Shown: piece by piece, positions 4,627 through 55,613 of the stretch
Layout: each line of letters starts with the position of its first letter
How positions within the stretch are numbered: the stretch's first letter is position 1
From: Flavobacterium profundi
GTDB taxonomy: Bacteria > Bacteroidota > Bacteroidia > Flavobacteriales > Flavobacteriaceae
Assembly: GCF_006491645.1 (NCBI RefSeq)
Contig: NZ_VDCZ01000012.1
Span: 62,001 to 126,000 of the forward strand
DNA length: 64,000 bases
Reading direction: 5' to 3'
Translations under genes and position numbers: made by a program
Notes under the pieces: generated by a model
The model's database searches: none
Told to the model about the DNA's origin: nothing
The model's input: only the letters and a program-made list of their open reading frames with translations

Positions 4627-4687
4627 TTCAAAACCGTCAATTCGAGTACTTTTTCAAAGAAAAAGTGTATCGAGAATAGGTTTTGAA
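4627..4687. repeat. Palindromic interspersed repeat, copy 1
   Basis: A 61-nt hairpin. Perfect outer arms are TTCAAAACC (4627-4635) and GGTTTTGAA (4679-4687), and perfect inner arms are ACTTTTTC and GAAAAAGT around 4648-4666. Between them are the family termini GTCAATTCGAG and ATCGAGAAT, shared with copies at 6357, 15694 and 55182. The remaining parts of the interval between the terminator at 4537 and rtcB show only a weak TTATCATTTTGATAA hairpin and no further gene. Confidence 0.7.
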
Positions 4688-14821: not shown

Positions 14822-14844
14822 TTTTGTCTTCTTTTTAATTGATA

Positions 14845-17076
14845 ATGAAAGACATTCTTCTCATAACACCTCCTTTTACCCAACTGAATACACCGTATCC
14901 AGCAACAGCTTATTTAAAAGGATTTTTGAATACTAAGGAGATATCTTCTTTCCAAATGGATTTAGGAATAGAAGTGATTTTAGAATTATTTTCTAAATCT
15001 GGATTGACCAATATTTTTCAATACGCTTCCAAACAATCTAAAAAAGATTGGTCAGAGAATGCCCAACGTATTTTTACTTTACAAAATGAATATGCTAAAA
15101 CCATAGATGCGGTGCTTGCATTTCTACAAGGGAAAAATGCTTCTTTGGCAAGGCAAATTTGTAGTGGTAATTTTTTGCCAGAAGCTTCACGATTTAACGC
15201 TTTTAATGAAGATGAAGAGGGTTTTACTTGGGCTTTTGGAGCCATGGGTATGCAAGATAAAGCCAAACATTTGGCTACGCTTTATTTAGAAGATATCTCA
15301 GATTTTATAGTGGAATGTGTCGATGCTAATTTTGGTTTTAGTCGCTATGCAGAACGATTAGGTAGAAGTGCCAATTCTTTTGATGAATTATACAACGAAT
15401 TGCAAAAAGAACTTACTTACATCGATACTATAACTTTAAAACTTTTAAAGGAAAGAGTAGTAGCAGTAGACCCAAAATTAGTCTTGTTTTCTGTCCCTTT
15501 TCCAGGTAATTTGTATAGTGCTTTTCGATGTGCTCAATGGATTAAAAAAAATAATCCTGCTATTAAAATTGCAATGGGTGGAGGTTTCCCAAACACAGAA
15601 CTAAGAGATGTAAAAGACAAACGCGTTTTTGAATTTTTTGATTTCATAACATTAGATGATGGGGAATTACCAGTAGAATTATTATATAATTTTGTCAGTT
15701 CGAGCGGAGTCGAGAACCAATTCAAACGTACCTTTCTTCTAGAAAAAGAGGAAGTAGTTTATAAGAATACGACTTTAAAAAAGGACTATAAACAAAGTGA
15801 AATTGGTACTCCTGATTATACAGATTTATTATTGAACCAATATATTTCAGTCATTGAAATTGCCAATCCCATGCACAGCTTATGGAGTGATGGTAGATGG
15901 AACAAGTTAACCATGGCACACGGTTGTTATTGGGGAAAATGTACATTTTGTGATATATCGCTTGATTATATTAAAGTGTACGAACCCATTGCTGCTAAAC
16001 TTTTAGTGGATCGAATGGAAACATTAATTGCACAAACTGGAGAAACCGGTTTTCATTTTGTGGATGAAGCGGCGCCACCCGCTTTAATGCGTGAAGTAGC
16101 ATTAGAAATCTTGAAGAGAAATTTGGTGGTAACCTGGTGGACAAACATACGCTTCGAAAAAAGTTTTACTTCCGATTTATGTTATTTATTAAAAGCTTCG
16201 GGTTGTATTGCAGTTTCTGGTGGTTTAGAAGTGGCTTCTGATCGTTTGTTGGAACTCATAAAGAAGGGTGTAACGGTAGAACAAGTAGCACAAGTTACTC
16301 GAAATTTTACGGTAAATGGCATTATGGTTCATGCTTATTTAATGTACGGCTATCCTACGCAAACCGTTCAAGAAACAGTAGATAGTTTGGAAATGGTGCG
16401 TCAACTTTTCGAATTAGGAATTATTCAATCGGGTTTTTGGCACCAATTTGCCATGACAGCTCATAGTCCTGTTGGACTCGACCCAGATGCCTTTGGAGTT
16501 ATTCCACAACAAAATGGCACGAGCTTTAGCGAATTGGCGAAGCAAATTACTTTTGCAAACAATGATATCGCATTCAAAGATAAAACGGGTATTGATCATG
16601 AAAAATTTAGCTTTGGATTGAAAAAATCATTGTTCAATTATATGCATGGTGTTTGTTTTGATTATGAGTTGCAAGATTGGTTCGACTTTAAAATTCCAAA
16701 AACGACAATTGATCCTAATTTTATTTCCAATTGTTTGGAAAAAGAAGAAAATTTTGCTTTAAAATTAAACGCTAAAGTGATTTGGTTAGGAAATTTACCT
16801 GAAATAAAGCATTTTACCAAATCCAAAAAAGGAAAATCTTGGAAAATGATACAGTTCCTTTTTCACGATAAAAGCACTTCATTTGAAATCGTATTAGAAG
16901 AGGAAAAAGGGTTATGGTTGTATGATTTTTTTCAAAAAAATACACCTCAAAATAGTAATAAATTAACTTTAAATCAAATGAAATTGGATTATGAAACTAA
17001 TTTCGATGACTTTGAGTTATTTTGGTATGCCAAATCCATGCAAATTATCCGAAATAATGGCTTATTAGTGTTGTAA
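14845..17076 (+). CDS. B12-binding-like radical SAM protein of unknown substrate
   Basis: 743 residues from ATG 14845 (an in-frame TTG lies 6 nt upstream). The N-terminus ILLITPPFTQLNTPYPAT resembles the cobalamin-binding start of B12 radical SAM enzymes, and a Rossmann-like part with AMGGGFPN lies near 244. The cluster motif is HGCYWGKCTFCD, with Cys361, Cys366 and Cys369. That is CX4CX2C instead of CX3CX2C, a variant I have seen in this class. The TIM barrel continues with SGGLEVASDRLL and MYGYPTQT. The codons for residues 284-291 (VSSSGVEN) are a copy of an interspersed repeat. The product may be a methylated or rearranged metabolite; no pathway genes sit nearby. Confidence 0.85.
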   Translation: MKDILLITPPFTQLNTPYPATAYLKGFLNTKEISSFQMDLGIEVILELFSKSGLTNIFQYASKQSKKDWSENAQRIFTLQNEYAKTIDAVLAFLQGKNASLARQICSGNFLPEASRFNAFNEDEEGFTWAFGAMGMQDKAKHLATLYLEDISDFIVECVDANFGFSRYAERLGRSANSFDELYNELQKELTYIDTITLKLLKERVVAVDPKLVLFSVPFPGNLYSAFRCAQWIKKNNPAIKIAMGGGFPNTELRDVKDKRVFEFFDFITLDDGELPVELLYNFVSSSGVENQFKRTFLLEKEEVVYKNTTLKKDYKQSEIGTPDYTDLLLNQYISVIEIANPMHSLWSDGRWNKLTMAHGCYWGKCTFCDISLDYIKVYEPIAAKLLVDRMETLIAQTGETGFHFVDEAAPPALMREVALEILKRNLVVTWWTNIRFEKSFTSDLCYLLKASGCIAVSGGLEVASDRLLELIKKGVTVEQVAQVTRNFTVNGIMVHAYLMYGYPTQTVQETVDSLEMVRQLFELGIIQSGFWHQFAMTAHSPVGLDPDAFGVIPQQNGTSFSELAKQITFANNDIAFKDKTGIDHEKFSFGLKKSLFNYMHGVCFDYELQDWFDFKIPKTTIDPNFISNCLEKEENFALKLNAKVIWLGNLPEIKHFTKSKKGKSWKMIQFLFHDKSTSFEIVLEEEKGLWLYDFFQKNTPQNSNKLTLNQMKLDYETNFDDFELFWYAKSMQIIRNNGLLVL
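15694..15717. repeat. Interspersed repeat copy 3, inside the radical SAM gene
   Basis: GTCAGTTCGAGCGGAGTCGAGAAC, 24 nt, in frame and read as VSSSGVEN. It matches the copy inside the YggS gene (55182-55205) at 20 of 24 positions and shares its ends with the longer intergenic copies at 4636 and 6357. Confidence 0.7.
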
Positions 17077-36039: not shown

Positions 36040-36060
36040 CATCCGCATTCGAGAAATAAT

Positions 36061-36132
36061 GGTCCGTTCGTCTAGGGGTTAGGACGCCAGGTTTTCATCC
36101 TGGTAACACGGGTTCGATTCCCGTACGGACTA
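36061..36132 (+). tRNA. tRNA-Glu (anticodon TTC)
   Basis: 72 nt. Acceptor stem GGTCCGT / ACGGACT (one G-T), D arm with GGGGTTAGGAC, anticodon stem CCAGG / CCTGG around TTTTCAT with anticodon TTC, and T arm ACGGGTTCGATTCCCGT. The discriminator base is A and CCA is not encoded. Confidence 0.95.
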
Positions 36133-36148
36133 CAAATTTAAGCTCAAT

Positions 36149-36220
36149 GGCCCGTTCGTCTATCGGTTAGGACGCCAGGTTTTCATCCTGGTAAGAGGGG
36201 TTCGATTCCCCTACGGGCTA
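36149..36220 (+). tRNA. tRNA-Glu (anticodon TTC), second copy
   Basis: 72 nt. Acceptor stem GGCCCGT / ACGGGCT, anticodon TTC in TTTTCAT, T arm AGGGGTTCGATTCCCCT. It differs from the first copy in the acceptor, D and T arms but not in the anticodon arm, and lies 16 nt downstream. CCA is not encoded. Confidence 0.95.
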
Positions 36221-36378
36221 CAAATTAGTTGTGAAATAGTTTTATGAAATAAAACTTTAGTGTCTCAAAGTCTTATTTTATTAGTTAAAACCAAAGTGAT
36301 TATTAAATATAATTGTGGGAGGTTTTTCTTTTTTAACTAGTAGTTTATAATAATTATTACAATTAAAAAAAGTACAAA

Positions 36379-54920: not shown

Positions 54921-55613
54921 CTAACTTCTATGTCCAAATATACTACTTCCTATTCGAACCATGGTACTTCCACAAGAAATAGCCAATTCATAATCTCCCG
55001 ACATGCCCATTGAAAGAATATTCAAGTCTATAGTATCACAAGTAACGGAGCCGAAATGTTTTTTTGAGGTATCGAAAAGGACTTTTAAATGTTGAAACTC
55101 TTTTTGAATTTGGTTCTGGTTTTCAGTAAAGGTAGCCATTCCCATTAATCCAACTACTTTTATGTTTTTAAATGAAGGATTGTCACTTTGAGCAGAGTCG
55201 AGAAGTAGGTTGAGAATGTCATTTAATTCGGTTTCATCTAATCCAAACTTCGTTTCTTCTTCAGCAATATGCATTTGTAATAAACACGGAATAACGCGAT
55301 TGTTTTTTGCCGCTTGTTTGTTAATTTCTTGCAGTAGTTTTAAGCTATCAACACCATGAATCAAACTCACAAAAGGAGCCATATATTTCACTTTATTGGT
55401 TTGAACATGACCAATCATATGCCATTCAATATCTTTTGGCATTTGCTCATACTTTTCAGTCATTTCTTGAATTTTGTTTTCACCAAAAATACGTTGGCCA
55501 GCATGGTACGCCTCCATTACATCTGAAACAGGTTTTGTTTTAGAAACCGCCACAAGTGTAACTTGTTGAGGAATATTTTTTTTTATGCTGTTAAGATTTG
55601 TTGCTATGGACAT
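54921..55613 (-). CDS. YggS-family PLP homeostasis protein
   Basis: 230 residues. YggS/PLPBP binds pyridoxal 5'-phosphate through Lys25 in AVSKTKP and keeps vitamin B6 balance. GENKIQEM, WHMIGHVQTNKVKY and MGMSGDYELAISCGSTMVRIGSSIFG are family marks. The segment LLLDSAQSD (near 138-146) is encoded by an interspersed repeat copy (55182-55205) and is an addition compared with the relatives I recall. The insertion sits in a surface-loop region before KNIKVVGLMGMATF, so activity should be retained. Confidence 0.92.
   Translation of the reverse strand: MSIATNLNSIKKNIPQQVTLVAVSKTKPVSDVMEAYHAGQRIFGENKIQEMTEKYEQMPKDIEWHMIGHVQTNKVKYMAPFVSLIHGVDSLKLLQEINKQAAKNNRVIPCLLQMHIAEEETKFGLDETELNDILNLLLDSAQSDNPSFKNIKVVGLMGMATFTENQNQIQKEFQHLKVLFDTSKKHFGSVTCDTIDLNILSMGMSGDYELAISCGSTMVRIGSSIFGHRS
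55182..55205. repeat. Interspersed repeat copy 4, inside the YggS gene
   Basis: GTCACTTTGAGCAGAGTCGAGAAG, 24 nt, read in frame on the minus strand as LLDSAQSD with one more Leu. It differs at 4 of 24 positions from the copy in the radical SAM gene (15694-15717). Confidence 0.7.

Follow-up and report, generated by a model that had tools for sequence, protein, structure and literature searches.

A 24-nt REP-like palindrome read in frame in a Flavobacterium radical SAM gene, at a protein loop occupied by different repeat families in related species

The window analyzed in this work is a 64-kb stretch of DNA corresponding to positions 62001-126000 of contig C12 in a 4.0-Mb Flavobacterium genome (G000). 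The following features are relevant to this study.

4636-4677, plus strand: intergenic long form of the repeat, 42 nt, GTCAATTCGAG...TATCGAGAAT
14839-17076, plus strand: radical SAM host gene, 745 codons, ORF called from TTG
15694-15717, plus strand: 24-nt REP-like element, identical to the genomic consensus and encoding VSSSGVEN in frame
54921-55613, minus strand: yggS (230 aa), which carries a decayed copy
55182-55205, plus strand: decayed copy GTCACTTTGAGCAGAGTCGAGAAG, antisense to yggS, whose minus strand encodes LLDSAQSD

The element, GTCAGTTCGAGCGGAGTCGAGAAC, starts at a codon boundary of the radical SAM ORF and forms codons 286-293, ahead of the radical SAM core (PF04055, residues 360-519); the position, frame and translation given in the first-pass annotation were all reproduced. 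It is the sole match to this sequence at up to 3 mismatches in the window, where shuffles expect 0. The copy reported to share 20 of 24 bases with it inside yggS is indeed present with 4 mismatches. As had also been claimed, a longer form sharing these ends occurs between genes, with one such copy in the window. In a structure model of moderate confidence (mean pLDDT 69.8), the element lies in a loop that connects a predicted helix with a strand. The length of this loop varies among orthologues, the nearest named ones being Flavobacterium proteins with 75% identity, and the element fills most of it. Existing loop codons were replaced, with a net gain of about 1 residue compared with the shortest orthologues. 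A clean 8-residue insertion is thus ruled out at this length-variable, mostly replaced loop. Orthologues carry unrelated residues at the site, so that the encoded peptide is not ancestral; the outcome named in the first-pass annotation as refuting, the same residues in distant orthologues, was not found. Elsewhere in the window, two adjoining direct repeats of 81 nt (36058-36226, 91% alike) resemble a duplicated tRNA gene.

The palindrome had been proposed to belong to a dispersed repeat, and the genome-wide pattern GTCANTTCGAGN{2,32}TCGAGAA indeed gave 28 matches versus 0 for the reversed control. A looser pattern, GTCANNTCGAGN{4,34}TCGAGA, gave 45 and 0, respectively. Since the controls gave no matches, these sequences represent a dispersed repeat and not a chance pattern. 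The idea that the match is ancestral coding sequence, similar to the repeat only by coincidence, has nothing in its favour beyond the open reading frame and is refuted by the zero expected matches and the unrelated residues in orthologues.

In each element, an unpaired GTC(A) foot precedes an imperfect palindrome, which folds as a REP-like hairpin with a stem of about 6 pairs, a 2-nt bulge and a 6-nt loop. The short form has 24 nt (GTCA-NN-TCGAGCGNAGTCGAGA-N'N'), while longer forms of about 30 and 42-53 nt keep the ends and differ in the middle. The first paired bases vary freely (GT, CT, CA, CC, TC, TA, GG, AA, AG, CG and others), and the end triplets of the 24-mers covary: 24 of 34 distinct copies are fully paired, using 13 pair types, compared with a mean of 3.1 fully paired in shuffles, none of which (0/2000) reached the observed value. 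Because of this covariation, the hairpin must have been under constraint as nucleic acid. The base preceding GTC, scored by eye in 28 copies of this genome, is T in 21, C in 5 and G in 2, giving TGTC or CGTC in 26 of them. The bases 3' of the palindrome vary, and no fixed CCA tail was established among these copies.

Across congeners, the number of copies per genome is uneven, ranging from 0 to 50, and the copies are mainly intergenic; many species have no element at all, and outside the genus only 1 of 59 genomes contains any. Inverted close pairs occur in G029, G047, G051 and G066, whereas the copies of G000 are mostly single or arranged in same-strand arrays. Two such one-orientation arrays, in which short and long forms recur as composite units, lie at the end of contig C12 (L066:8390-11175) and at the start of contig C16 (L067:1-1026). 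Both contigs end within near-identical array sequence and are probably neighbours split by the repeat array. The ORFs spanning these regions are short spurious frames within the arrays; they were rejected as genes and excluded from the counts.

Well-formed in-frame copies were found in convincing genes of G000 in eight instances (radical SAM, LeuRS twice, UvrA, PurL, SerA and epimerase-like twice), with YggS adding one decayed copy. The hosts include several genes that our analysis calls essential. The earlier claim that the repeat donates coding sequence is therefore borne out as far as reading frames are concerned, by the radical SAM gene and six other genes of the same genome. The frames of LeuRS, PurL and SerA are intact despite the elements, which only suggests, from sequence, that the host proteins are expressed and functional. 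Of the six reading frames of the common 24-mers, whose length is divisible by three, five are open, and coding copies use four of these. In contrast, the lengths of the 52-53 nt forms do not divide by three, and no 42-53 nt copy lies within a convincing gene. For these reasons of length and openness, the short form is the coding one. Two copies within a single epimerase-like gene (L068:4376-4398 and 4641-4663) are even read in different antisense frames, yielding LLDSARSD and FSTPLEVT.

The net length change across the sites ranges from 0 to +8 residues. An excess of exactly 8 residues, which the first-pass annotation had proposed to look for in the radical SAM and YggS proteins, is seen at the second LeuRS site, but neither in the radical SAM protein, where a variable loop was rewritten, nor in PurL, where the net change is zero. 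At this LeuRS site, G000 and its nearest relative G061 share VSNEF-LSSRAESRD-ENKTVF, while 27 of 28 other congeners are empty and exactly 8 residues shorter; the remaining one, G071, holds a different palindrome (TLSAVEG). Both LeuRS copies are common to G000 and G061. Likewise, the YggS loop is 4-6 residues longer than in all congeners examined except G061, which shares the extension. In SerA, the element replaces three residues for a net gain of 6, and G065 carries a similar but distinct element there. For UvrA, the PDB alignment with the solved structure 2r6f gives a gain of about 1 residue, which speaks against a clean +8 insertion.

Several observations on these host proteins are added here. 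At the first LeuRS site, in the loop before the editing domain, L229, L233 and L244 contain peptides resembling IANEVKQS or IASEAKQS, apparently encoded by a further dispersed palindrome. The LeuRS open frames of many congeners (G016, G025, G031, G044 and others) reach 1,000-1,386 codons, and their alignments are interrupted near residues 300 and 670, which suggests larger insertions at permissive places. SerA in G000 (L078) and about 14 congeners has a glyoxalase-like C-terminal domain and 456 aa, while it has about 320 residues in most congeners.

In a comparison of radical SAM orthologues across the genus, the palindromes seen in this loop fell into four types: family A (TCGAGCGNAGTCGAG; read as VTSSEVEK or LSSRAESRD), family B (TTCTGAACTTGTTTCAGAA; CHSELVSES), family C (CTGAGCTTGTCGAAG; CQTELVEV) and family D (CATTCCGACGAAGGAGGAATC; CHSDEGGIS). 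Scored at up to 3 mismatches, 34 of 106 loops are occupied, versus 6 of 3,556 control windows taken from elsewhere in the same genes. F. johnsoniae and F. defluvii are among the species with an occupied loop. Families B-D were recognized partly at this loop itself; B and C were then confirmed as dispersed repeats in the genomes of species in which they occupy the loop. In addition, occupancy by family A tracks the genomic copy number of family A (P=0.002). On a tree of the gene from which the loop had been removed, at least 27 changes of occupant were counted, a number that depends on a topology weakly supported in part. Close relatives can differ as well: L144 (family A) and L316 of G012 (family C) are 95.5% identical proteins with different families in different frames, and in L199, L336 and L339 one element is nested inside another. 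Combined, these findings mark the radical SAM site as a hot spot of repeated occupation.

All 34 clear occupants lie on the coding (plus) strand. Those of family A are read in frames 0 and 2, those of B, C and D in frame 1 and at the same nucleotide offset. The constant orientation and the shared offset and frame would also be expected if each site had received a single ancient insertion that was inherited vertically and diverged, the families being its decay products, which is the model favoured for Rickettsia RPE-4, RPE-6 and RPE-7, where the same alternatives were weighed (PMC3767692). In line with this, the G061 radical SAM protein, 95% identical to that of G000, retains an eroded GTCA... 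element at the same site, and G061 also shares the YggS copy and both LeuRS copies. However, the occupants stand in three frames and at several offsets, they match families dispersed in the same genome, and some are nested. The G061 copy and the perfect one of G000 disagree at 9 of 24 bases, a divergence above that predicted from silent sites (P=0.011). We read this sequence difference as a sign that the G000 copy was probably refreshed recently in the G000 lineage.

PurL bears on the same question. Here, PVIDASKPRPKAA has become PVISSGVERPKAA with no change in length, and the bearers are six species that form separate tips among empty sites, corresponding to six changes on a gene tree that is again weakly supported in part, so that the number depends on the tree. 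This points to about six independent strikes. The elements of G000 and G008 are identical at 24 of 24 bases, although the silent sites of the two genes are only 58% identical. Spread of the purL segment by gene exchange was considered and rejected, as the identity extends no more than a few codons beyond the element. In G061, whose PurL is 97% identical to that of G000, no element is recognizable. Perfect copies within flanking sequence of only about 57% silent-site identity and the scattered PurL bearers are further difficult to reconcile with one old insertion per site, an explanation that we consider improbable overall. In the PurL of G068 (L289), the same loop contains a different palindrome in reverse orientation (TSSIDCAQDDTLSVT).

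Even where PurL is empty, its sequence is similar to the two ends of the element (CCNGTNAT... and ...AGACC), and part of this is conserved coding sequence. An old element could mark each loop and be overwritten by very short ectopic gene conversion, that is, by recombination between repeats instead of transposition. This proposal shares much with repeated occupation by a spreading element and differs in requiring a prior resident element. It would account for the constant orientation, the GTCA foot and GAGC..GTCGA core shared by families A and C, the matching ends and zero length change in PurL, and the refreshed copy in G000 next to the eroded one in G061. On the other hand, frame changes between close relatives would need non-aligned exchange, the second LeuRS site represents a gain at a truly empty site, and most empty PurL sites have no trace of an older element. 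We regard it as a possible, though less likely, explanation. Constant orientation and the offset common to B, C and D also agree with in-place swapping of an old element as opposed to a fresh insertion. The data as a whole favour repeated occupation, to which in-place overwriting may contribute.

Convergent selection was also considered, whereby the sequence would be kept for a role in DNA or RNA (binding site, terminator) or as a peptide. The repeated choice of the same loops and the strongly conserved core would agree with such a role. Nevertheless, the peptides found in these loops are unrelated and come from many frames, the element is missing from many species, and the copies are mainly intergenic and unevenly distributed, which makes this scenario very unlikely.

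The REP-like anatomy of the elements raises the question of a transposase. The Y1 transposase domain (PF01797) has no match in the G000 genome, which rules out a resident REP transposase, and likewise none in G029 (41 copies) or G012; G061 (18 copies) is absent among the matches listed. Y1 proteins occur in 58 of 90 congeners, and across congeners the copy number is slightly higher in their presence, a weak trend (P 0.05-0.09). When 30 Y1 loci were searched by regular expressions for families A-C, none was flanked by them, and the notion that the elements are RAYT-flanking REPs was rejected. The RAYT-like Y1 gene of G047 (L132), the one inspected with flanking repeats, is surrounded by inverted and tandem copies of a separate family (CTATAAATAT..CGCTCCTACGGAGCT). 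A classical REP that was once mobilized in trans by a RAYT (Y1) transposase, since lost from the genome, would suit the anatomy, the wide occurrence of Y1 proteins and the weak trend; already weakened by the missing domain matches and the unflanked loci, this origin appears rather unlikely.

In the past, REPs tagged with CGTC or TGTC were described that have no transposase, include intragenic copies and list Bacteroidetes among their phyla, and Rickettsia RPE-4 and RPE-6 were placed within this superfamily (Di Nocera, De Gregorio, Rocco 2013, PMC3733652). The first-pass annotation held that in-frame coding copies are rarely described in flavobacteria; this must be qualified, since intragenic tagged REPs, RPE-4 and RPE-6 included, were already known (PMC3733652). 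Searches of the literature for coding palindromes in flavobacteria yielded nothing closer. Tagged REPs are the closest known kind to our elements. Both are short palindromes that bear an unpaired nGTC tag on one side (TGTC or CGTC in 26 of 28 copies here), both form several families per genus with intergenic and intragenic copies, and both show no association with transposase genes. However, tagged REPs have an 8-9 bp stem starting with A-T pairs and a 4-5 nt loop, unlike the free first pairs, bulge and 6-nt loop observed here. Tagged REPs also have a short unpaired tail, mostly CCA; in G000 copies, the bases after the palindrome vary. Head-to-head dimers predominate among tagged REPs; G000 copies are mostly single or same-strand, and inverted pairs are found in G029, G047, G051 and G066. 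Because the elements share the tag, the occurrence within genes and the missing transposase but depart from the stem and loop definition, we consider them a variant of tagged REPs.

The Rickettsia elements RPE-4, RPE-6 and RPE-7 are likewise in-frame palindromic inserts in housekeeping genes (PMC3767692, PMC3733652), with different element groups at the same orthologue sites and an ATGAC motif, which reads GTCAT on the other strand. They are longer, 84-144 nt in the cases compared, and the insert is present in all orthologues at a site, whereas here occupancy flips between close relatives. As in GTAG REPs and REPINs, a tetranucleotide foot precedes an imperfect palindrome, with clusters and, in relatives, inverted close pairs (PMC3733652, PMC3116915). 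In contrast to GTAG REPs with a RAYT, the foot is GTCA, the genome contains no RAYT and the Y1 genes are unflanked. MITEs, with 70-300 bp, terminal inverted repeats matching a transposase and a target duplication, differ from a 24-nt element, and since the empty-site comparison gives exactly +24 nt in LeuRS and net zero in PurL, no room is left for a target duplication. Cyanobacterial small dispersed repeats, reportedly described by Elhai in 2008 as about 20-30 nt long, without a known transposase and in some cases within genes, are similarly very short; their sequence is not known to be related.

With regard to sites, a single instance of different REPs at nearly the same position has been noted, in recB of two Xanthomonas species, and the study that noted it does not describe a protein loop being re-occupied repeatedly in about 100 species (PMC3733652). 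In R. japonica, different RPE groups were seen at the same sites and hot spots could not be excluded (PMC3767692). Our searches found no description of the same protein loops being repeatedly re-occupied by different repeat families across a genus.

Taken together, the explanation that we prefer, with a probability of roughly 0.75, is that a 24-nt REP-type element spreads through the genomes of this genus and lodges mostly between genes, and that in-frame landings in tolerant protein loops may survive as coding sequence because the element measures 24 nt and has five open frames out of six. The radical SAM loop would be occupied, eroded and re-occupied by whichever palindrome family abounds in the species. 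As to the mechanism, a hairpin-bearing, probably single-stranded, sequence would be copied into the target at short homologous ends and take the place of 0-24 nt; the target sequence between the matching ends would be lost, and purifying selection would then keep frame and tolerance. Spread would thus proceed by hairpin-strand copying rather than by a resident REP transposase. The encoded peptides are presumably tolerated rather than useful, the loop position being taken from a moderate-confidence model. In a more general and quite tentative form, a transposase-independent process might overwrite DNA with hairpin repeats at short matching ends, sometimes without changing its length, such that loops are independently rewritten by the active family.

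For Rickettsia, the question had been whether such inserts represent hot-spot insertions or one diverged old insert (PMC3767692). Here, repeated re-occupation is favoured, because the comparison spans about 100 species, several genes and the divergence of silent sites, and the free-living, culturable hosts make the question testable. Loops in the core enzymes LeuRS, PurL, SerA and UvrA would be a regular landing place for selfish DNA. Repeat-filled loops may represent a continuing source of new peptide sequence as well as a trap for protein alignments and annotation, and they point to a spreading mechanism for REPs without a transposase.
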